A stretch of DNA of 44,209 nucleotides, taken from an uncultured Spirochaetaceae bacterium. GTDB lineage: Bacteria; Spirochaetota; Spirochaetia; Sphaerochaetales; Sphaerochaetaceae. Under the pieces are notes generated by a model. The model saw only the letters and a list, made by a program, of their open reading frames with translations. It was not told the origin of the DNA and did not search any database. Both the position numbers and the translations under genes were made by a program. Positions 26,075-36,382 of the stretch are shown piece after piece (the first letter of the stretch is position 1; every line of letters starts with the position of its first letter). The DNA lies in assembly GCA_944389155.1 (NCBI GenBank), contig CALXLI010000091.1, forward strand, positions 1-44,209. The letters run 5' to 3'.

Positions 26075-26845
26075 TTATACAAGCATCAATTCTATGGATT
26101 GATCTTTTATTGCTTTTACGTATTCATCTCTCAATCCCTTATCCGTGATTATCAAATCAATATCACTCAGTGGACACACGAAGACTAATGCTGATGACTC
26201 AAATTTCTTGTGGTCTGTGACAAGTATCGTACGTCTTCCGCATTTCGTGATTTCCTTCTTAATCTCAACTTCCTGATAATTGAAATTATATATGCCATTT
26301 TTCGCATCTACCGCATCACAAGCCAAAAACGAAACATCAACTTTAAAATGCTTGATAGCTTCCTGGGTCAACGAACCAATCACAACACCGTAATCCCTTC
26401 TAATAAGCCCGCCTGTGAATATAACGGAAGATGAAGGATCAAAATCTACCGAATAGACGATTTCCAGGTTATCTGTCACAATTGTCAGATTCTTTTTTGA
26501 AATAAGCTCACAAGCTATGAAATATGTTGTAGAGCCAGAATCAAGAAAGATGCTTTGACCTTCTTTTACCTGTCCTGCTGCTTTCTTGGCTATCCTCTTT
26601 TTCTCATCCTGCATCAATTGCATCTTTTCATTATGAATGCGTTCATAGGTCGTTGATGTTGACCTTAAAGCCCCACCATGGACACGATCAATATAATTGC
26701 CATCAGCTAACACATCCAGATCTCTCCTTATTGTCGCTTCCGAAGCTCCAGTTTTCACTGCTAACTGATGGACTGTTGCAAACTCAGAAGAATTTATTGC
26801 TTCCAATATATTCCTTTGTCTATTATTCAAAACAATCTGAGACAT
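26075..26845 (-). CDS. DeoR-family sugar-responsive repressor (SgcR-like)
   Basis: A 256-residue DeoR regulator. N-terminal helix-turn-helix with the family signature (ATIRRDLDVLADGNYIDRVHGGA at about 36-58), then a sensor domain with IFLDSGSTTYFIA, FTGGLIRRDYGVVIG and the C-terminal DLIITDKG. Such repressors bind a phosphorylated sugar. It is the last gene of the operon, preceded by GAGGGG. It probably controls the operon through the inverted repeats at 36402-36475. Confidence 0.9.
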   Translation of the reverse strand: MSQIVLNNRQRNILEAINSSEFATVHQLAVKTGASEATIRRDLDVLADGNYIDRVHGGALRSTSTTYERIHNEKMQLMQDEKKRIAKKAAGQVKEGQSIFLDSGSTTYFIACELISKKNLTIVTDNLEIVYSVDFDPSSSVIFTGGLIRRDYGVVIGSLTQEAIKHFKVDVSFLACDAVDAKNGIYNFNYQEVEIKKEITKCGRRTILVTDHKKFESSALVFVCPLSDIDLIITDKGLRDEYVKAIKDQSIELMLV

Positions 26846-26861
26846 TCACCCCTCTGAATCA

Positions 26862-27782
26862 TCAAATGATGTTCTTAATCCTATTCACAATTCCATCAAC
26901 ATTCAATGAATGCAATTCAAAAAGGTCATCACAGCTGCCAGATCTGCCAAATACGTCATTTATACCATGAGTTATGACTTTGCCACGGCCAAGTTTAGCG
27001 ACATACTCACACACTGCGCCTCCCAGTCCCCCTATTATATTATGATCTTCCACGGTCATTATGTTCTTGGTATCGCTTACAGCCTTCTCTATTGCGATTG
27101 TATCAATGGGCTTGATTGAATACATATCTACAACTCTTACGCTGATACCATCCTCTTTGATTCTTTCAGCTGCTTCAAGACAATGATGGACCATACGGCC
27201 ACAAGCCATGAGAGTAATATCCGATCCTTCGAGAAGTACCTTGCTACCTCCAATGCAGAACTCTTCTGATTCATCATATAACTCAGGAGATGGTTGTTTT
27301 GTCAACCGCAAGTAAAACGGACCATATGTTTCTCCCGCAATACAAGTTAGTTTATAGGACATAATAGGTGTTGATGGAACAAGAATTCTTATGTTTGGAA
27401 TGGCCCGGAATATAGCCATATCTTCTGTAGCCTCGTGTGTTGCTCCATCATATCCAGTTTCAATTCCACTATGAGTTCCGACAACTTTTACATCAAAATT
27501 ATTATAACAAACCTGATTTCTGACTTGATCCAAGGCTCTCATTGATACAAAAACGGCAAAAGAACCAACAAAAACAGTGTTCCCACAGGAAGCAAGTCCT
27601 GCCGCAACAGAAACCATATTCTGTTCTGCTATTCCGACTTCGATGAATCTGCCAGGAAACTCATCGGCAAACTTCTGATAATTTAATGGTGAAATACAAT
27701 CTGCATCAACAACAAAAATATTAGGATTTTTCCTAGCCATATCATATACGGCATTTCCATATGTAATCCTTGTGGAAATCAT
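26862..27782 (-). CDS. transketolase, C-terminal subunit
   Basis: A 306-residue protein with the pyrimidine-binding and C-terminal domains of transketolase: FIEVGIAEQNMVSVAAGLASCG carries the TPP-activating Glu, then HSGIETGYDGATHEATEDMA and VEDHNIIGGLGGAV. It needs the partner encoded upstream for the diphosphate-binding half. The start is ATG 27782 in a TGATG overlap with the partner gene, with GGAGG 8 nt upstream. In dedicated catabolic operons such split transketolases often act on one unusual ketose phosphate. Confidence 0.9.
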   Translation of the reverse strand: MISTRITYGNAVYDMARKNPNIFVVDADCISPLNYQKFADEFPGRFIEVGIAEQNMVSVAAGLASCGNTVFVGSFAVFVSMRALDQVRNQVCYNNFDVKVVGTHSGIETGYDGATHEATEDMAIFRAIPNIRILVPSTPIMSYKLTCIAGETYGPFYLRLTKQPSPELYDESEEFCIGGSKVLLEGSDITLMACGRMVHHCLEAAERIKEDGISVRVVDMYSIKPIDTIAIEKAVSDTKNIMTVEDHNIIGGLGGAVCEYVAKLGRGKVITHGINDVFGRSGSCDDLFELHSLNVDGIVNRIKNII

Positions 27783-28606
27783 CAATGTGCCTCCTTTAAC
27801 TGTCTCATAGCTTCAAAGTACTGCTCTTCGGATGGAACTGCGCCATGCCAAGTTGCACTATTTTCCATAAATGAAACTCCATTGCCTTTGGTTGTTTTAG
27901 CGATTATTGCGATAGGTTCATCAACTTTCTCATCAAACAAATGCTCAAAGCAATTAACCACATCTTCCATATCATTACCTTTATTTATAGTAACAACATG
28001 CCAGCCAAAAGAGGCAAACTTTTCCTGTGGTGATCCTATCGGCATAAGTTCCTCATTAGAGCCAGACATCTGAACTCCATTATGGTCAAGAATACAGACA
28101 AGATTTGAAAGCTTGTATTTTGCAGCACTCATCATGGCTTCCCAGATCTGTCCCTCCTGAAATTCACCGTCACCGATTAGGCAGTATGTCTTATAGCAAA
28201 GCTTTTTGAACTTAGCATTCAAAGCCATACCAACAGCTGCTGATAATCCCTGCCCCAATGGACCTGAAGACATATCTATACCTGGCGTTTTTATGTTAGG
28301 AGCTCCCTGAAGATGGCCACAGACATTCCGAAGCTTAGCAAGATCTTCAACAGGGAAAAAGCCTCTTCTAGCCAATGCTGCATACAAAATAGGAGCAGAA
28401 TGTCCCTTGCTCAATACAAACCGATCCCTATCGATTTTACACGGGTTATCTTCATCAATATTCATAAACCTGAAATATAATGCTGTAATTATTTCAGCAG
28501 ATGAATAACAACCTCCAATATGTCCAGATTTTGCTTTATAAATTGAATTCAATGTATCAATTTTCAGCTGCTTTGAAATATCTTTCAATTCACGAACAGT
28601 GCGCAT
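27782..28606 (-). CDS. transketolase, N-terminal subunit
   Basis: A 274-residue TPP-binding half. The TPP motif is IGDGEFQEGQIWEAMMSAAKYKLSN (GDG at about 147-149, closing Asn later); substrate and cofactor histidines are in SGHIGG, SKGHSA and the SSGPLGQGLSAAVG loop. GGAGGAG precedes the ATG. With the C-terminal subunit it transfers a two-carbon ketol unit between sugars; donor and acceptor are unknown here. Confidence 0.92.
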   Translation of the reverse strand: MRTVRELKDISKQLKIDTLNSIYKAKSGHIGGCYSSAEIITALYFRFMNIDEDNPCKIDRDRFVLSKGHSAPILYAALARRGFFPVEDLAKLRNVCGHLQGAPNIKTPGIDMSSGPLGQGLSAAVGMALNAKFKKLCYKTYCLIGDGEFQEGQIWEAMMSAAKYKLSNLVCILDHNGVQMSGSNEELMPIGSPQEKFASFGWHVVTINKGNDMEDVVNCFEHLFDEKVDEPIAIIAKTTKGNGVSFMENSATWHGAVPSEEQYFEAMRQLKEAH

Positions 28607-28608
28607 TT

Positions 28609-29502
28609 CTACTCCTCCTTTCTTATGAACCTATTCAAAAAACGCGAAGATTCCTTTAACACATAACATCTGTCTGAAGGGTTATCATTCAATTCACATG
28701 TAATCCACCCATCATAACCGATAGCTGCCAACGAATTGAAAATTCTCTCAAAATTGATTATACCCTTCCCAAATTCAACGAAATTATCCAATGACAGCCT
28801 ATCATCTTTATAATCCTTCAGATGGACTCTTTTGATTCTATGGCCAAGAATCTCTATCCAATGCTCAGGGATACCGAAAGGCATTACATTAGCCACGTCA
28901 AGGTAGACTTTCACATAATCTGAGCCTATCGAATCTATGAAGTCACGCATCTCTAAAGGAGACAGTAAGAACTTACTCCAAGTATTTTCGACACAGACAA
29001 CAACTCCTGCACTTTCTGCATAATCTGAGATTCTGCAGAATGCTGATAGGGCTCTTTCATAAGCTTTATCATACCGTATCACCTCAGATGATGGATCATA
29101 AGAACATGCACTGTCTAAAGAATAATGAGGATGAAGACCTCCTACGCTATACTCAAATGACACAAAGCCAGGAATAGCAAGTATAGCCGACACCTCCAAA
29201 CTTTGAGCCAAATCTATTTGTCGAACAAGCAGATCATAAGCTTTCTGACGTATCGTATGGTTATCACTGGTTAACGATGCTTCCCAATTCAAAGGACTTG
29301 TCAAAGAATTGATAGCTACGCCCGTATTCTGACTAATATGCTTGATTTGCGCTAAATCAGAAGTCTTTGAATCAATTTTGACTGCATCATTAGACAATAT
29401 TACAAGCTCTATTCCATCAAAATCAAATGACTTAGCCAACAAGAATTTCTCCTCAATTGACGTATCTTTTGGAAACCCCCAATAGTGCATAGCTTTTTTC
29501 AT
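28609..29502 (-). CDS. sugar phosphate isomerase/epimerase (xylose-isomerase-like)
   Basis: A 297-residue AP_endonuc_2-type TIM barrel. Metal-ligand motifs are VVCVENTWSKF (first Glu, about residue 175), VYLDVANVMPFG (Asp), KRVHLKDYKD (His) and WITCELND (last Glu). Family members are ketose epimerases and sugar isomerases. It overlaps the M42 gene by 4 bp (ATGA). In this pathway it may convert the imported sugar, or its phosphate, to the ketose for transketolase; that is inference. Confidence 0.85.
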   Translation of the reverse strand: MKKAMHYWGFPKDTSIEEKFLLAKSFDFDGIELVILSNDAVKIDSKTSDLAQIKHISQNTGVAINSLTSPLNWEASLTSDNHTIRQKAYDLLVRQIDLAQSLEVSAILAIPGFVSFEYSVGGLHPHYSLDSACSYDPSSEVIRYDKAYERALSAFCRISDYAESAGVVVCVENTWSKFLLSPLEMRDFIDSIGSDYVKVYLDVANVMPFGIPEHWIEILGHRIKRVHLKDYKDDRLSLDNFVEFGKGIINFERIFNSLAAIGYDGWITCELNDNPSDRCYVLKESSRFLNRFIRKEE

Positions 29503-30593
29503 AATTCATACCGCCCTAGTGGAAACTCTGGAGTGATTCTACTTGTCATTTCAGCAACTAATCCACCCAACGCCTCTATGTCCTTAATTGAAACAACTTC
29601 AACAGGAGAATGTGTATACCTTGCAGGAAACCCTAAATCGAGACAGGATATGCCATTTTGTTCCATCTGTATATATGCAGATTCTGTTATTATCCCAAGA
29701 GACGCAAAACGCTGCACCGGTATATTGTTTTCATGAGCTGTTTTCTCCGCGAACTTTACAAGGTTCTCATTTGGAATCATACCATTGAGAGTCCCTCTCC
29801 CATGAAAATTATAGAGGTTCACAGTTGGCCCTGATCCTACAGAATTCTGATATTTGTCAGATAAATCCGGTGTATCGCCAGCAAGGATAACATCCAAACC
29901 TAGTGCAATATCAGGTTTTATTGCCCTCGCGGCAAATACTGCACCTCTTATATTGAATTCCTCCCAGACCGTTCCAACCAGAAAAACATTGCACTTCGGT
30001 CTATTCCTGTGGAGTTTATCTGCAGCAATCACCAAAGCTGCAAGACCTCCTCTATCGTCAAGTGCTGTACCACAAACTTTATCATCAGCCAACTCCATAA
30101 ACGAAGGTTCATAAATGACTGGACATCCAACATCTATTCCAAGACGATATACATCTTCTGCACAGCATGCACCAATATCTATGTTCAGAGAAGTAACTGG
30201 TTCTACCTTATATTTTTCTTCGGGAGATGACGCATGATGTGCTTTATTTCCAAATACTCCTGGCACGAATCTGCCATCCTTGGTCCTGATGAATAATCGG
30301 CAACAAGGCAAGACTTTCTCTGGAATTCCACCTAATCTATCAACATTTATATATCCATCGTCTCTGATTTTTCTAACAATGAATCCCAAGGAATCCATAT
30401 GTGCATAAACCATAATATTCAAAGCATTCTGCTCAGTCCCTTTTATACAGGCAATGACAGACCCCATTTTATCCAGATAGATATCATCTACATAATCTTT
30501 GATTTCATTGTAAAAAACCTTGGCACATTCCTTCTCATACCCAGAAGGTGCAGGTGCCAAACACAGCATTTTTAAAATATCAACAGTATTCAT
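29499..30593 (-). CDS. M42-family metallo-aminopeptidase (SgcX/FrvX-like)
   Basis: A 364-residue M42 peptidase-like protein with all metal ligands: AHMDSLG (His and Asp), LDDRGG (bridging Asp), TVWEEFNIRGA (catalytic and ligand Glu), LDVILAGDTPD (Asp) and YTHSPVEVV (His). Known members trim short peptides as large oligomers. SgcX and FrvX are relatives that sit in sugar operons, where they may cut a peptide or amide bond on the substrate. It overlaps the epimerase gene by 4 bp (ATGA). Confidence 0.88.
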   Translation of the reverse strand: MNTVDILKMLCLAPAPSGYEKECAKVFYNEIKDYVDDIYLDKMGSVIACIKGTEQNALNIMVYAHMDSLGFIVRKIRDDGYINVDRLGGIPEKVLPCCRLFIRTKDGRFVPGVFGNKAHHASSPEEKYKVEPVTSLNIDIGACCAEDVYRLGIDVGCPVIYEPSFMELADDKVCGTALDDRGGLAALVIAADKLHRNRPKCNVFLVGTVWEEFNIRGAVFAARAIKPDIALGLDVILAGDTPDLSDKYQNSVGSGPTVNLYNFHGRGTLNGMIPNENLVKFAEKTAHENNIPVQRFASLGIITESAYIQMEQNGISCLDLGFPARYTHSPVEVVSIKDIEALGGLVAEMTSRITPEFPLGRYEL

Positions 30594-31240
30594 TTAACCT
30601 CCAATTGAATTCGTTCGAGTTCCTTAATGGATTCATAGGCATCTGTCCCTGAAAACACTAAGCGACCAAGAACAACTCCAGAGAATCCATGTTGTCCTAA
30701 AACTTTTACATGCTCTCTAGAAAGGCCTCCATCAGCCAACAGTTCAACTGTCGATGGAATATATCTTCTTGATCTTTCTGCCTTCATGAATGCTTCTAAA
30801 TCAAAATCCTCCTGCCTTCTGCCAGTTGGTTTTGATGTCAAAAAAAGCAATTTCTTGATTTTATCAACATATGGCAAAATACATTCCAACGATGTTTCTG
30901 CCAATAATGCCAAACCACATACCATATCAAGGTCTTTGCATATAGAAGAGTATTCAGCTATATCATCCAAGATCTCAATATGTACAAAGACTTCCGTACA
31001 ACCTATCTTTTTTATATCACTAAGATATAAGAGCGGATCTCTGACCATAAGATGAAACTGCTTATTTTCAGCTTTGCTTGCATTGCATATTGCCTCAGCA
31101 GTTCTAAGACCAAATGTTATATTTTCTGAAAGACTCCCATCTTCAATATCAATATGCAAGTTAGGACAAAGTGATATCCTATCCAATTCTTTCTGATAAC
31201 AAAGACAATCCGCAGATGCAATAGATGGATATATATTCAT
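30590..31240 (-). CDS. ribulose-phosphate 3-epimerase-like protein (SgcE-like)
   Basis: A 216-residue TIM barrel of the Rpe family. Kept: PSIASAD, LHIDIEDG (metal His and Asp), NITFG, HLMVRDP (His) and ELLADGG (metal Asp). The NPGFGGQ loop is changed to SKPTGRRQED, so the substrate may differ from ribulose 5-phosphate. This matches the SgcE/AlsE side branch. A GGTGGTGAT ribosome site lies 2 nt before the ATG. Confidence 0.85.
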   Translation of the reverse strand: MNIYPSIASADCLCYQKELDRISLCPNLHIDIEDGSLSENITFGLRTAEAICNASKAENKQFHLMVRDPLLYLSDIKKIGCTEVFVHIEILDDIAEYSSICKDLDMVCGLALLAETSLECILPYVDKIKKLLFLTSKPTGRRQEDFDLEAFMKAERSRRYIPSTVELLADGGLSREHVKVLGQHGFSGVVLGRLVFSGTDAYESIKELERIQLEVK

Positions 31241-31243
31241 ATA

Positions 31244-31984
31244 TCACCACCACTTTATCTGATCTGTTACGTATTTTCTGTATTCAATGAACTCTTTTGA
31301 AGCTATATCTCTTGGTCTAGGGATATTAATCTCAAGTTCTTCCTTTATTTTCGCAGGTTTATTTGTAAGGATAATGACCTTGTCTGCCAGATATATAGCC
31401 TCCTCAATATTATGCGTAATGAAGATAACTGTACTCTTAAAATTCTTCCATAATCGTATTACCTCATCTTCTAGATAGAACCTCATCTTTATGTCCATTT
31501 GACCATATGGTTCATCCATAAGAAGCAAATCCGGATGCATCGCAAAACTTCGGCCTATCACTATTCTTTGTTCACTGCTAACTGAAAGCTGGTGCGGGTA
31601 TTGTTTTCTGAATTTCTGTAAGCCAAGAAGATTAAGTACCTCGTCAGTCCGTTTTTTTATGACATCTTTGCTTTCCTTTTTTATCTTCATGCCATATGCA
31701 ATATTCTCTTCCACTGTAAGCCACGGAAAAGCTGAAGGTTCTTGAAATGCAAAAGATATATTATGGATTTTTGGATCAGCAGGAATCCCATCAATTAATA
31801 TCTCACCTGATGTTGGAATAATCAAGCGTGTAAGTAGATTAAGAAATGTCGTTTTTCCACAACCTGTAGGGCCTACCACACATACAAATTCCTCATTTTT
31901 GATATTAAATGATATATCATCCAAAACGAGGAGATCACCAAAGGCGTGTGTAAGATTTTTTACTTGTATCTTATTTTCACTCAT
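31244..31984 (-). CDS. NitT/TauT-type ABC transporter ATP-binding protein 2 (degenerate signature)
   Basis: A 246-residue ATPase. Walker A is GPTGCGKTT, Q-loop AFQEPSAFPWLTVEEN, Walker B LLLMDEPYGQMD, switch FITHNIEEA. The signature is LSVSSEQR where LSGGxxQR is expected, so both glycines of the motif are lost. The start ATG 31984 (MSENK) has GAGG upstream and follows the first ATPase gene by overlap. It likely pairs with ATPase 1, which has the intact signature. Confidence 0.9.
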   Translation of the reverse strand: MSENKIQVKNLTHAFGDLLVLDDISFNIKNEEFVCVVGPTGCGKTTFLNLLTRLIIPTSGEILIDGIPADPKIHNISFAFQEPSAFPWLTVEENIAYGMKIKKESKDVIKKRTDEVLNLLGLQKFRKQYPHQLSVSSEQRIVIGRSFAMHPDLLLMDEPYGQMDIKMRFYLEDEVIRLWKNFKSTVIFITHNIEEAIYLADKVIILTNKPAKIKEELEINIPRPRDIASKEFIEYRKYVTDQIKWW

Positions 31985-31986
31985 AA

Positions 31987-32760
31987 TCATACCTCGGAAT
32001 CAATTGATAAATCAGTGTTCTCGGAAATCTTCTGCCTAAGCAAAAGGAACTCTTCACTCATCAGATCACGCGGACGTGGCATATTTACTTCATAGATTTC
32101 CTTGACACGAGCAGGACATTCAGTAAGCAAAACTATTCTATCCCCTAACGCCAATGCCTCCTCTATATTATTCGTAACAAAGATTACTGTCCGCTTTTCA
32201 ATAGACCATATATTGGAAATCTCTTCTTCCATTGAATAACGAGTCTGAGCATCGAGTGCGCCAAACGGTTCATCCATAATCAATATCTCAGGATTATTAG
32301 TATAGGCTCTTGCAATTCCAACTCTTTGTTTCATTCCACCTGAAAGTTGTGGTGGACGATGAGATTCAAAGCCCTGTAAACCAACAAGGTTTATATATTT
32401 CTGGGCCCTTTCCCTTCTTTCAGACTTTGCCTCACCCTTAAACCGTGGTCCAAGCTCAACATTCTCCATAACAGTAAGCCATGGGAAAACTCCTGTTTTC
32501 TGGAAAACCATTCCCATATCTGGATTTGGACCATCTATTTTGACACCATCGAGTTCAACAAAACCTACATCCGGAGTCTCTAAGCCTGCAATAATATTGA
32601 GCAATACTGTCTTACCGCAATGCCCTGGACCCAATATCACAAGGAACTCATTATCGAAAATATCCAATGAAAGGCTATCAATCACTTTATGATAATCTTT
32701 TTTCTTAAGTTTATAGCTTTTTGATATTTCATTTATTCTTAATCGCAGTTTTTTATCCAT
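31987..32760 (-). CDS. NitT/TauT-type ABC transporter ATP-binding protein 1 (switch His replaced)
   Basis: A 257-residue ATPase. Walker A is GPGHCGKT, Q-loop MVFQKTGVFPWLTVMEN, signature LSGGMKQR, Walker B ILIMDEPFGALD. The switch motif reads FVTNNIEEA, with Asn where His is expected. The start overlaps the end of permease 2 by 8 bp. It is one of two ATPases for the same importer. Confidence 0.9.
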   Translation of the reverse strand: MDKKLRLRINEISKSYKLKKKDYHKVIDSLSLDIFDNEFLVILGPGHCGKTVLLNIIAGLETPDVGFVELDGVKIDGPNPDMGMVFQKTGVFPWLTVMENVELGPRFKGEAKSERRERAQKYINLVGLQGFESHRPPQLSGGMKQRVGIARAYTNNPEILIMDEPFGALDAQTRYSMEEEISNIWSIEKRTVIFVTNNIEEALALGDRIVLLTECPARVKEIYEVNMPRPRDLMSEEFLLLRQKISENTDLSIDSEV

Positions 32761-33523
32761 GACATACCAACTTCTCTAGATAATTCGTAACGACAGCTAA
32801 AAATACGCCAACAAGACCTATTACAACCATTCCAACCATGATGAGAGGCACATCGAAAGCATCCATTCCTCTTTGGATAATGAATCCCAAACCTTCTTGA
32901 GCACCTATCATCTCCGCAGCCATGACAACCATCAATCCGCCACTGGTAGCTGTCCTGAATCCTGCAAAAATAGCAGGCATTGATGCAGGAAGAGCTATAT
33001 TGAATAATAATTTCATACTATTGGCGTTAAACATCTTCCCTACGTCCAAATATAGAGGATCAACAAGCTTTATACTTGTAGCCGTATTTAGAACAATTGG
33101 AGTGAATGTTCCTATAAAGACAATCAATATCTTAGGAATCTCACCTATTCCGAGAAGCATGACAATAAGTGGCAGCCATGCGATTGGTGGAATAGGCCGA
33201 ATCAATTCAAACAAGGAACCGACCGTTGCTTCTGCAGTCTTGTTCCAGCCAATCAGAATTCCAAAAGGGATTCCGATGCTGCAAGAGAAGAACAACGCAA
33301 TAAGAACTCTGCGCAAGCTCGCCCATATGTGTCCCCAAATGTACTGGTTATTAATGGGATTTGTAAATGTTTTCACAAACCGATCAATGACATCGCCTGG
33401 CGTAGGAACAAGTACTCTATTGACACTTGAGGCAAAAAACCAAAGAACGATAAGTAACAGCACAGAAATAACTGGTAATACTAAATATAAAATCTGCTTG
33501 ATAAGTATGTTCTTATTATTCAT
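32753..33523 (-). CDS. NitT/TauT-type ABC transporter permease 2
   Basis: A 256-residue BPD_transp_1 permease with six membrane segments. The EAA-type coupling loop is at about residues 163-182 (DVGKMFNANSMKLLFNIALP). IPFGILIGW and PIPPIAWLPLIVM are typical of SsuC/TauC relatives. It is a paralogue of permease 1, and the two probably form a heterodimer in the inner membrane. Confidence 0.9.
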   Translation of the reverse strand: MNNKNILIKQILYLVLPVISVLLLIVLWFFASSVNRVLVPTPGDVIDRFVKTFTNPINNQYIWGHIWASLRRVLIALFFSCSIGIPFGILIGWNKTAEATVGSLFELIRPIPPIAWLPLIVMLLGIGEIPKILIVFIGTFTPIVLNTATSIKLVDPLYLDVGKMFNANSMKLLFNIALPASMPAIFAGFRTATSGGLMVVMAAEMIGAQEGLGFIIQRGMDAFDVPLIMVGMVVIGLVGVFLAVVTNYLEKLVCHG

Positions 33524-33527
33524 GATC

Positions 33528-34310
33528 TTACACGGTCCTCCATTTCACAACGACACTTTCGATTTTCTTGAACACATAAGAGAATATGTAGCCCATGATT
33601 CCAATGGAGACCATGCCAACCAGAATTATATCTACACGGCCAAAAGACCTTCCCATATTAATCATATATCCAACACCGGCATTTGCCGCCAATAATTCAG
33701 CAGCAACCAGCGTACTCCAAGCACTATTTAAAGCAATTCTTATGCCAGTAAATGTCAGGGGCATCGCAGACGGTATGGCCACAGAAGTAAATACTTTGAA
33801 ATTTGAAGCACCGAATGTCCTTGCAACATTGATCATTGTTTTATTCGTCTCTTTGATGCCTGTATAAGCATTAATAAGACATGGCACAAAGGAGGCAAAG
33901 AATACAATCATGGATTTTGCTCCTAACCCTATTCCAAACCATATTATGGTAAGAGGAATCCATGAGATAGGAGGAATAGGCCTAATGAATTCAAAAATCG
34001 GCCTTACAAACCTATCTATCCCTTTATACCATCCCATAAGCCAGCCAAGTGGCACACCAATGGCTATAGCTAAGAATAATCCAGTACATGCCACCTGCAA
34101 ACTAACGAGAATATTGGTAGGGAGAGTTGATCCATCAGGACGGCTGTCAGTCATTTTAATCAAAAATGTCCTAAATACTACCACTGGTGATGGAATAATA
34201 CCACCATATCCTAGAGAAACAATAAGCTGCCACAATATAAGAAATACAACAACTGACAGGATTGCATATATATTATATCTGAATTTACTTATCTGTTTTT
34301 TTCTACTCAA
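33528..34310 (-). CDS. NitT/TauT-type ABC transporter permease 1 (TTG start)
   Basis: A 260-residue BPD_transp_1 permease; EAA loop NVARTFGASNFKVFTSVAIP, and PIPPISWIPLTIIWFG. I chose the TTG at 34308-34310: GGGAGG sits 7 nt upstream. A longer frame from 34382 would add an odd, Cys-rich 24-residue N-terminus lying over a strong hairpin, so I reject it. Confidence 0.85.
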   Translation of the reverse strand: MSRKKQISKFRYNIYAILSVVVFLILWQLIVSLGYGGIIPSPVVVFRTFLIKMTDSRPDGSTLPTNILVSLQVACTGLFLAIAIGVPLGWLMGWYKGIDRFVRPIFEFIRPIPPISWIPLTIIWFGIGLGAKSMIVFFASFVPCLINAYTGIKETNKTMINVARTFGASNFKVFTSVAIPSAMPLTFTGIRIALNSAWSTLVAAELLAANAGVGYMINMGRSFGRVDIILVGMVSIGIMGYIFSYVFKKIESVVVKWRTV

Positions 34311-34327
34311 CTTGAGTCCTCCCTTTA

Positions 34328-34368
34328 TAGGGGTTGGTTGAAAGCCAATGCTTTCCAAACAACCCCTA
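34328..34368 (-). promoter_or_regulatory. strong stem-loop between binding protein and permease genes
   Basis: Arms TAGGGGTTG (34328-34336) and CAACCCCTA (34360-34368) enclose a second stem GAAAGC (34340-34345)/GCTTTC (34350-34355) with a four-base loop. On the minus strand it lies 10 nt after the stop of the binding-protein gene and 18 nt before the permease start. No T-run follows; AAAGGGAGG follows instead. It probably stabilises the 3' end of the binding-protein message or partly ends transcription. Confidence 0.7.
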
Positions 34369-34378
34369 CAGACTAAAG

Positions 34379-35527
34379 TCACTGATTTTCAAACAAATCT
34401 ATTATTATCGAACCATCAAACGTAGCCTTCTTGAAATCCTCAAGATCCTGCAAAGTATATGAACCTATATTAGTTGCATAGAACTCCAACAGATTATAAT
34501 GACTGTCAAACAATGGAGTGAAACCAGATTCAGTTGTTGAAGATACCATATTGTAAGCTTCTTCAAGTGTAGTAATCTTATCTTTTGTAAGTGTCGTTAG
34601 ATTTGCTTCCTTTGTACTTGTTATGCCACTGTTTTCATTGATAGCAGTAAAGTACTCTGCAGCTTTATCCAGATTTGCACCATCATTAGCATATACCCAC
34701 TCAGCTGTCTTATAATACAATTCTACAAATTTTGCTATCGCTTCTTTCTTTGCTGGGTCGTTATAGCTATTCGGATTCGCAACAAGTGTTATTGATATAT
34801 CACTGTTGAGCCCAAGAGCAGTAATCACAGGTGTATATGCTTTATTCAGAGCTTCACCATATGAATATGATCCCCATACACCGCCAATCTCAGCTCTTCC
34901 AGCCAATAGAGCTGTGTTAACACCGGAAACATCCATATGAATGATGCTGACATCATCAAGGCCAAGCCCCAGTTCTGCAAGCCCTTGAGAAAGAGTATAG
35001 TGCAATGTTGTTCCAGTTGTTACGGCTATCTCCTTCCCTCTCCATTCCTCAGCAGTACCATATACACCGGAAGGTGTTGTTGGGCCTGTCTTTACAATAT
35101 CGGAATCATTCTTTGCAAAAATATTGATGGATGCATTATCTTTTGCAGCAGGTCCTATTACAACAAGATCATTTCGCAAAACACCATTAAATACTCCACC
35201 AATACCAGTGGTTCCACAATCCCATGAATTACTTGTCAAAGCTTCCATTTGGACTGGACCACCAGAAAATGTAACAATATCAGCATCAATATTTGCCTTA
35301 TCATATCCTCCAAACTGTTCAATCAGGAATACGATAAAAGCATGATGCGTTCCCGCATGTGTTGATATTACAAGCTTTGTGTTTTCAGCAAGAGGAGCAA
35401 CATCATCATAAAGATGAGCCTCATCTTCTGAAAGTTCATTAGTTTTAGCTACTTCGCTTGCGCCTCCAGCAAAAATGGCCGAACCAATTATCAATAAAAT
35501 CGAAAGAAAAGCTATTATTTTCTTCAT
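34379..35527 (-). CDS. NitT/TauT-type ABC transporter substrate-binding protein
   Basis: A 382-residue periplasmic binding protein of the NMT1/SsuA/TauA group. Signal peptide MKKIIAFLSILLIIGSAIFA then GGASE, with no lipobox cysteine. Typical blocks are SNSWDCGTTGIGGVFNGV, WRGKEIAVTTGTTLHYTL and HMDVSGVNTALLAGRAEIGGVW. Family ligands are small, often anionic molecules (sulfonates, nitrate, pyrimidines); sugars would be unusual. The ribosome site AAGGAGG precedes the ATG. It is upstream of the two permeases and two ATPases. Confidence 0.88.
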   Translation of the reverse strand: MKKIIAFLSILLIIGSAIFAGGASEVAKTNELSEDEAHLYDDVAPLAENTKLVISTHAGTHHAFIVFLIEQFGGYDKANIDADIVTFSGGPVQMEALTSNSWDCGTTGIGGVFNGVLRNDLVVIGPAAKDNASINIFAKNDSDIVKTGPTTPSGVYGTAEEWRGKEIAVTTGTTLHYTLSQGLAELGLGLDDVSIIHMDVSGVNTALLAGRAEIGGVWGSYSYGEALNKAYTPVITALGLNSDISITLVANPNSYNDPAKKEAIAKFVELYYKTAEWVYANDGANLDKAAEYFTAINENSGITSTKEANLTTLTKDKITTLEEAYNMVSSTTESGFTPLFDSHYNLLEFYATNIGSYTLQDLEDFKKATFDGSIIIDLFENQ

Positions 35528-35548
35528 ACATCCCTCCTTTTCTGTTTT

Positions 35549-36355
35549 TTATTTTCTGAAATTCTTTACTACCGTCATGAATTCCTTTACACGGTTTTCA
35601 TCTACTTGATTCTCAAACTTTCCATCATATTTGAATGTTGTACCGACAACTGCTCCATCGGCAATTTTCAACAATGCTTCAATGGTTTCTACACGACATC
35701 CTGTGTTAGCAAAAACAACAGTATCACCAACAGTTTCTTTAGCTCTGCGAAGAATTTCCGGATCAGTTGCAGACCCTGCGGTTGCACCAGATACACATAA
35801 TGCATCGGGCTTACAATTAAAGACCGTTGTTTTGGCTATTGATTCAATAGTTCTATCACCAAGATAACTGGCAGCTTCAGGGACTATATTGAAAAGGAGT
35901 TTGATATTTTCTCCACCGATTTCATGCTGATGCCGAACAACTTTTCCACAATCAGTATTCCAAAGACCAAAATCACTAGCATAAACACCAGAAAAGATTT
36001 CTCTTACAAAAAGTCCACCTGTTGCAACAGCAACATCAATCGAGGCAATTGGATCCCATAAACAATTAACACCAAACGGTATTTTCACAAAAGGCTTTAA
36101 CTCACCTATCAAACAAGCCATTGCTGCGACTGTCTCTCGCTTGATATCAGTTAGGTAGGGCATACTGAATTCATTGCTGAACATAATCGCATCGACACCA
36201 CCATTCTGCAATGCCACTACATCTTCCCTGGCTTTTTCATAAATCCAATCCATACCTTTCTTCTTGTCATAAAGAGGATCCCCTGGAAGAGCCTGCAAAT
36301 GACACATAGCAATTATCGCCTTTTCCGTACCAATAATTTCTTTTAACCAGCTCAA
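35549..36355 (-). CDS. BtpA/SgcQ-family protein
   Basis: A 268-residue TIM-barrel protein of the BtpA family (MCHLQALPGDPLYD, VDAIMFSNEFSMPY, PFGVNCLWDP, CKPDALCVSGATAGSATDPE, VFANTGCRVETIEALL). BtpA was first seen in photosystem I assembly; SgcQ is its homologue in the E. coli sgc operon, reaction unknown. I chose the TTG at 36353-36355 (read MSWLKEIIG) because AAGGAG precedes it and the family starts there; the GTG at 36382 lacks a ribosome site. It is the first gene of the operon. Confidence 0.88.
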   Translation of the reverse strand: MSWLKEIIGTEKAIIAMCHLQALPGDPLYDKKKGMDWIYEKAREDVVALQNGGVDAIMFSNEFSMPYLTDIKRETVAAMACLIGELKPFVKIPFGVNCLWDPIASIDVAVATGGLFVREIFSGVYASDFGLWNTDCGKVVRHQHEIGGENIKLLFNIVPEAASYLGDRTIESIAKTTVFNCKPDALCVSGATAGSATDPEILRRAKETVGDTVVFANTGCRVETIEALLKIADGAVVGTTFKYDGKFENQVDENRVKEFMTVVKNFRK

Positions 36356-36382
36356 TTGCTTCTCCTTATTTTCTTTTTTCAC

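Follow-up and report, generated by a model that had tools for sequence, protein, structure and literature searches.

Complementary motif changes in two ATPases of an SsuA/NitT-type ABC importer suggest a normal and an altered ATP site

The two ATPases of an ABC importer encoded by an uncultured Spirochaetaceae bacterium carry complementary changes in their nucleotide-binding motifs. The pair, found in more than 50 related operons from several phyla, appears from its sequences always to yield a normal ATP site together with an altered one, a combination familiar from drug exporters. Judged on this basis, the two proteins probably form an obligate heterodimer in which one site hydrolyses ATP and the other holds it. 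The importer genes are located in the window, that is, the whole stretch of 44,209 nucleotides that was analysed.

Importer operon and ATPase motifs

The importer block contains, successively, the genes of a substrate-binding protein (SBP), permease 1, permease 2, ATPase 1 and ATPase 2, with a BtpA/SgcQ gene ahead of them (Table 1). The open reading frames of the two ATPases, both on the minus strand, overlap by 4 bases; the translation used for permease 1 (P0005) begins at 34310. Both ATPases pass the Pfam gathering score of the ABC-type ATPases (PF00005; 99.7 and 103.9 bits at a cut-off of 25). The association of an SBP, NitT-type permeases and ATPases in one operon, in an order shared by most relatives, assigns the importer to the SsuA/NitT-TauT type. 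None of the named members (TauB, SsuB, NtrCD, SaoA) could be recognized in the ATPases, the best scores being 214–216 bits against a curated NCBIfam cut-off of 360. Naming of the window genes by NCBIfam equivalogs was dropped, as every match lay under its cut-off. The operon as a whole (26075–36382) unites BtpA/SgcQ, Rpe-like, M42 and DeoR genes with an ABC importer, and recalls the sgc operon of E. coli (sgcQ, sgcE, sgcX, sgcR), the importer replacing PTS genes.

Table 1. Genes and ATPase motifs of the importer operon in the window
Feature	Position	Strand	Remarks
Downstream genes: Rpe-like epimerase, M42 peptidase, TIM-barrel epimerase-like protein, split transketolase, DeoR regulator	26075..31240	-	context
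ATPase 2	31244..31990	-	P0001, 248 aa; PF00005 99.7 bits; clade support 100
ATPase 2 switch ITHN, His193	31409..31420	-	His 54/54
ATPase 2 D-loop YGQMD, Gln164 replacing Ala	31493..31507	-	Gln 54/54; absent from control D-loops
ATPase 2 signature LSVSS, Ser138 replacing second Gly	31574..31588	-	Ser 54/54; Ser in 0/87 controls
ATPase 2 P-loop GPTGCGKT, canonical	31850..31873	-	
ATPase 1	31987..32760	-	P0002, 257 aa; PF00005 103.9 bits; clade support 98
ATPase 1 switch VTNN, Asn197 replacing His	32167..32178	-	Asn 53/53; 0/87 controls
ATPase 1 D-loop FGALD	32251..32265	-	
ATPase 1 signature LSGGM, canonical	32332..32346	-	
ATPase 1 P-loop GPGHCGKT, positions 3–4 Gly-His vs [ST]-Gly	32608..32631	-	altered; 43/43 vs 0/87 controls
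Permease 2 of importer	32753..33523	-	best NCBIfam SaoP/TauC-like, below cut-off
Permease 1 of importer	33528..34382	-	best NCBIfam SaoP/TauC-like, below cut-off
Substrate-binding protein (SBP)	34379..35527	-	TIGR01728 SsuA family, E 3.4e-18, below cut-off; NMT1 just below cut-off
BtpA/SgcQ-family protein, operon head	35549..36382	-	PF03437 290 bits; TIGR00259 308 bits, over cut-off

The sequence-only reading had reported an intact LSGG signature with Asn at the switch (VTNN) in ATPase 1, and a switch His (ITHN) with an LSVSS signature in ATPase 2; all four motifs were read in the respective open reading frames. Two further changes were identified: the altered P-loop GPGHCGKT of ATPase 1 and the Gln in the D-loop (GQMD) of ATPase 2. 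The Walker B motifs are LIMDEP in ATPase 1 and LLMDEP in ATPase 2, the catalytic Glu being intact in both. Terms such as “broken” or “degenerate”, when applied to the altered motifs, would be deductions from the motifs themselves.

The D-loop is assigned to the composite ATP site together with the signature. According to the general rule, such a site takes Walker A, Walker B, the Q-loop and the H-loop from one nucleotide-binding domain (NBD) and the signature from the other (PMC7756269). Placed in this scheme by their motifs, all four changes map to one composite site, and the other site is canonical; the chance of four changes landing on one site is about 1/8. The pair thus shows the pattern of a transporter with one degenerate site, namely a changed signature in one NBD and a changed switch in the other, within the same composite site. 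A homodimer of either ATPase would contain no canonical site, and a mixed dimer exactly one.

Conservation and co-inheritance of the two ATPases

The search with ATPase 2 in 100 related genomes revealed 15 close homologues beyond the window's own (53–71% identity; next match 43%), and scanning the genomes of bacteria and archaea revealed 26 further ones at 54–75% (next at most 44%). By record name, the matches of the scan belong to Clostridia, Desulfobacterota, Spirochaetota (one Brachyspira MAG among them) and one Planctomycetota MAG. The family is sparse, ATPase 2 being present in 3 of 291 genomes of a clostridial sample and in 7 of 241 of a desulfobacterial one, with the starting genomes included in these counts. 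Wherever the contig permits, the ATPase 1 partner is located in the same operon as ATPase 2. The desulfobacterial operons are organized differently (ATPase 2, SBP, permeases, ATPase 1; or ATPase 2, permeases, ATPase 1, SBP), yet the ATPase pair stays linked. Only one orphan ATPase 1 was found (G434/L184), in a decaying operon (L184, 9300–11300) in which ATPase 1 is intact, the permeases are truncated and an N-terminal stub is left of ATPase 2. Another, weaker match to ATPase 1 (G192/L185) turned out to be a canonical relative that does not belong to the family. In locus L047 (G040:C126, 3017–5222) ATPase 1 contains an in-frame TAG and the two ATPase genes lie about 1.5 kb apart; this copy is possibly damaged or interrupted.

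The changed residues are conserved throughout the family. Among the ATPase 1 copies the switch is Asn in 53/53 and the signature LSGG in 52/52. Their P-loop, in all 43 readable copies, has Gly instead of Ser/Thr at position 3 and a non-Gly residue (Gln, His, Leu, Arg or Glu) instead of Gly at position 4. Among the ATPase 2 copies the switch His, the Ser at the second signature Gly (LSxS) and the D-loop Gln are each found in 54/54; the C-terminus of the protein (...IKWW; 31244–31260 in the window) is also nearly invariant in the family. As controls, 87 other ABC ATPases were taken from the family loci and from more distant matches. They possess the switch His and the Gly at P-loop position 4 in 87/87 and the second signature Gly in 86/87, the sole exception being an RbsA-like protein with LSVA that adjoins one relative (L050). 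Positions in the P-loop, signature, D-loop and switch, as well as the residue that follows the Q-loop Gln, are among those at which the two ATPase classes differ from the controls. Chance variation common in the family is ruled out by these controls, and a sequencing or assembly error is likewise rejected, because the same residues recur in many genomes (53 copies of ATPase 1 and 54 of ATPase 2).

The codon usage at two of these positions is also informative, at a mean divergence among copies of about 40%. Ser138 of ATPase 2 is encoded by AGY in 41 copies and by TCN in 13; lineages have crossed between these codon families and yet retained the residue, which indicates that Ser itself is under selection. 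Asn197 of ATPase 1 is encoded by AAC or AAT, each one base away from a His codon, and His is present in none of the copies.

A tree of 86 ATPases places ATPase 1 and ATPase 2 in one clade each (support 98 and 100, respectively), and both clades divide into the same three operon groups. The distance matrices of the two proteins are correlated (r=0.79), with 0 of 5000 permutations reaching as high a value, and some of this match reflects the shared history of linked genes. Since each ATPase has one origin, the co-occurrence across genomes represents conservation and not many independent events. The sequence-only reading had proposed to ask whether the two changes co-occur in homologues: every readable pair has both, and the trees are congruent. 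No homologues with signature and switch changes varying independently were found among the family copies, the orphan L184 lying in a decayed operon. The motifs and their co-occurrence hence support its further proposal of a heterodimer that would combine one canonical and one doubly degenerate site.

Proposed division of labour and alternative explanations

ATPase 1 and ATPase 2 would pair as an obligate heterodimer that serves an importer with a binding protein and two different permeases. Site A, which would be formed by the P-loop, Walker B and His of ATPase 2 and by the LSGG and D-loop of ATPase 1, is canonical, and ATP hydrolysis at this site would drive transport. Site B would consist of the altered P-loop and Asn switch of ATPase 1 and of the LSxS signature and Gln D-loop of ATPase 2. 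This site should bind ATP-Mg, because the Lys, Asp, Glu and Q-loop Gln are kept, and would hydrolyse it slowly or not at all, so that the dimer would stay assembled from one cycle to the next. Hydrolysis there may be slow and not absent, since the catalytic Glu is retained and an Asn switch is tolerated in MRP1, where Asn or Gln at the switch of the catalytic site gave wild-type-like transport (PMC7756269). The cost of the importer would then be about one ATP per cycle. AlphaFold2 gave confident models of both ATPases as single chains (mean pLDDT 90.3 and 88.7); the closest solved folds to the ATPase 2 model (mean pLDDT 90) are CmpD (Z 30.4, rmsd 1.9) and NrtC (Z 30.2, rmsd 1.8), over 243 residues.

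Homodimeric NBDs are common in importers, MalK being an example, and each ATPase might form a homodimer of its own, perhaps with different partners; neither homodimer would have a canonical site, however, and the genes come as a pair with mirror trees, which leaves this explanation with hardly any credibility. Within a heterodimer, both sites might hydrolyse ATP, with Asn replacing His, the kept Glu serving as the base and the changes tuning rate or coupling. The catalytic Glu, Walker Lys and Q-loop Gln retained in ATPase 1, as well as the wild-type-like transport of MRP1 with an Asn or Gln switch (PMC7756269), are in line with this arrangement, but site B also lacks both signature glycines, its P-loop and D-loop are changed, and His is kept in 87/87 controls. 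Hydrolysis at both sites is considered unlikely.

The fixation of the altered residues bears on two other explanations. If one active site suffices, site B could be decaying and its changes functionless, as single-residue changes in the degenerate site of Pdr5 left activity unaffected (PMC7756269); decay predicts drift, whereas no variation is seen across phyla at Asn197, Ser138, Gln164 or Gly46, at the divergence given above, and this explanation is very improbable. Site B might, instead of being a slow ATP site, act as a regulatory nucleotide or ligand sensor that gates the pump. Residues that are fixed and not drifting (Ser138 across codon families, the invariant Asn) would suit such a role, but the conserved P-loop Lys and Walker B fit ordinary ATP-Mg, so a sensor is judged improbable, if somewhat less so than decay. 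The heterodimer with one hydrolytic and one ATP-holding site is accordingly the reading we prefer. A broader interpretation is offered only tentatively: the pair may represent a widespread importer family with a single hydrolytic site, in which selection turned the second site into a novel kind of fixed element with a regulatory or ATP-holding role (Asn switch, LSxS, GPGQ-like P-loop, Glu kept).

Related transporters, substrate and significance

The cyanobacterial nitrate and bicarbonate importers NrtBCD and CmpBCD (8wm7, 9u9z) belong, like the window importer, to the NitT/TauT family and possess two different ATPases. NrtCD and CmpCD are solved heterodimeric importers, the closest to ATPase 2 by fold and to ATPase 1 by sequence. 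In the alignments, NrtC, NrtD and CmpD differ from the window pair in that P-loop, signature and D-loop are all canonical and the His is present, and the NrtC and CmpC chains comprise 665–690 residues (PDB table) versus 257 in ATPase 1. TauABC and SsuABC, the sulfonate importers, contain one ATPase gene and one permease gene; together with neighbouring families they give the best matches for the window SBP, permeases and ATPases, all below cut-offs. The window permease 2 has Asn at the EAA-loop Gly. Permease asymmetry was rejected as a partner feature of the ATPase changes, as this Gly is found in 50/50 copies of permease 1 and is replaced by N/K/R in 10/52 copies of permease 2, and the difference is not family-wide.

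In TAP, TM287/288, MRP1 and Pdr5, as in the window pair, one composite site is canonical and the other altered; the signature is changed and, in some of these proteins, the H-loop as well. In contrast to the window pair, these are exporters and most of them lack the catalytic Glu. Exporters with degenerate sites are usually devoid of this residue (PMC7756269), and its loss is described as the hallmark of their degenerate site in PMC7544095; ATPase 1 retains it as DEP in 44/44 copies. The altered site is therefore not classed as a degenerate site of the exporter type and would at most resemble one in the way it works. Among importers, the fused-NBD RbsA/NupO proteins have one degenerate site with a divergent signature (PMC11466899). 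They carry two NBDs per polypeptide and a second Walker A without Lys, whereas the window pair has separate NBDs with the Lys kept; the ATPases are separate open reading frames in the window, and no fusion was found among the relatives examined. The asymmetry had been called unusual for binding-protein-dependent importers. This holds for the separate-subunit SsuA/NitT type, for which no report of degenerate sites was found in literature searches of open-licence papers, but not for importers in general, as the fused type is already known; the window pair is a separate-subunit variant. Separate and different ATPase subunits are also present in DppABCDF, which is, however, a peptide importer with [4Fe-4S] clusters; according to PMC12136057, it binds only one nucleotide without the binding protein.

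The genes near 55 family loci include sulfatase-like genes (25), class III aminotransferase/PbfA-like genes (9), transketolases (6), sulfatase maturase-like genes (6) and TauE-like exporters (2), many of the sulfatase matches being weak (24–32% identity). Sulfatases and anaerobic sulfatase maturases often adjoin the importers of relatives (e.g. L045, L074, L077, L195), suggesting uptake of organosulfur compounds. Based on these neighbours and the SsuA-like SBP, the substrate of the family is probably a sulfonate, a sulfate ester or a similar organic anion, varying among operons; a link to a single substrate pathway was rejected because the neighbours vary among loci. The window operon contains a split transketolase and two genes resembling epimerases; as a guess, its substrate may be a sugar-like sulfonate, sulfate ester or related anion.

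It has long been asked whether type I importers consume one ATP or two for each substrate molecule, and an importer that naturally combines a canonical site with a fixed altered one would offer a direct test. The kept catalytic Glu separates the loss of signature and switch from the loss of Glu, which often occur jointly in exporters. The pair suggests that the fused RbsA type is not the only importer lineage in which the asymmetry of a consensus and a degenerate site arose.
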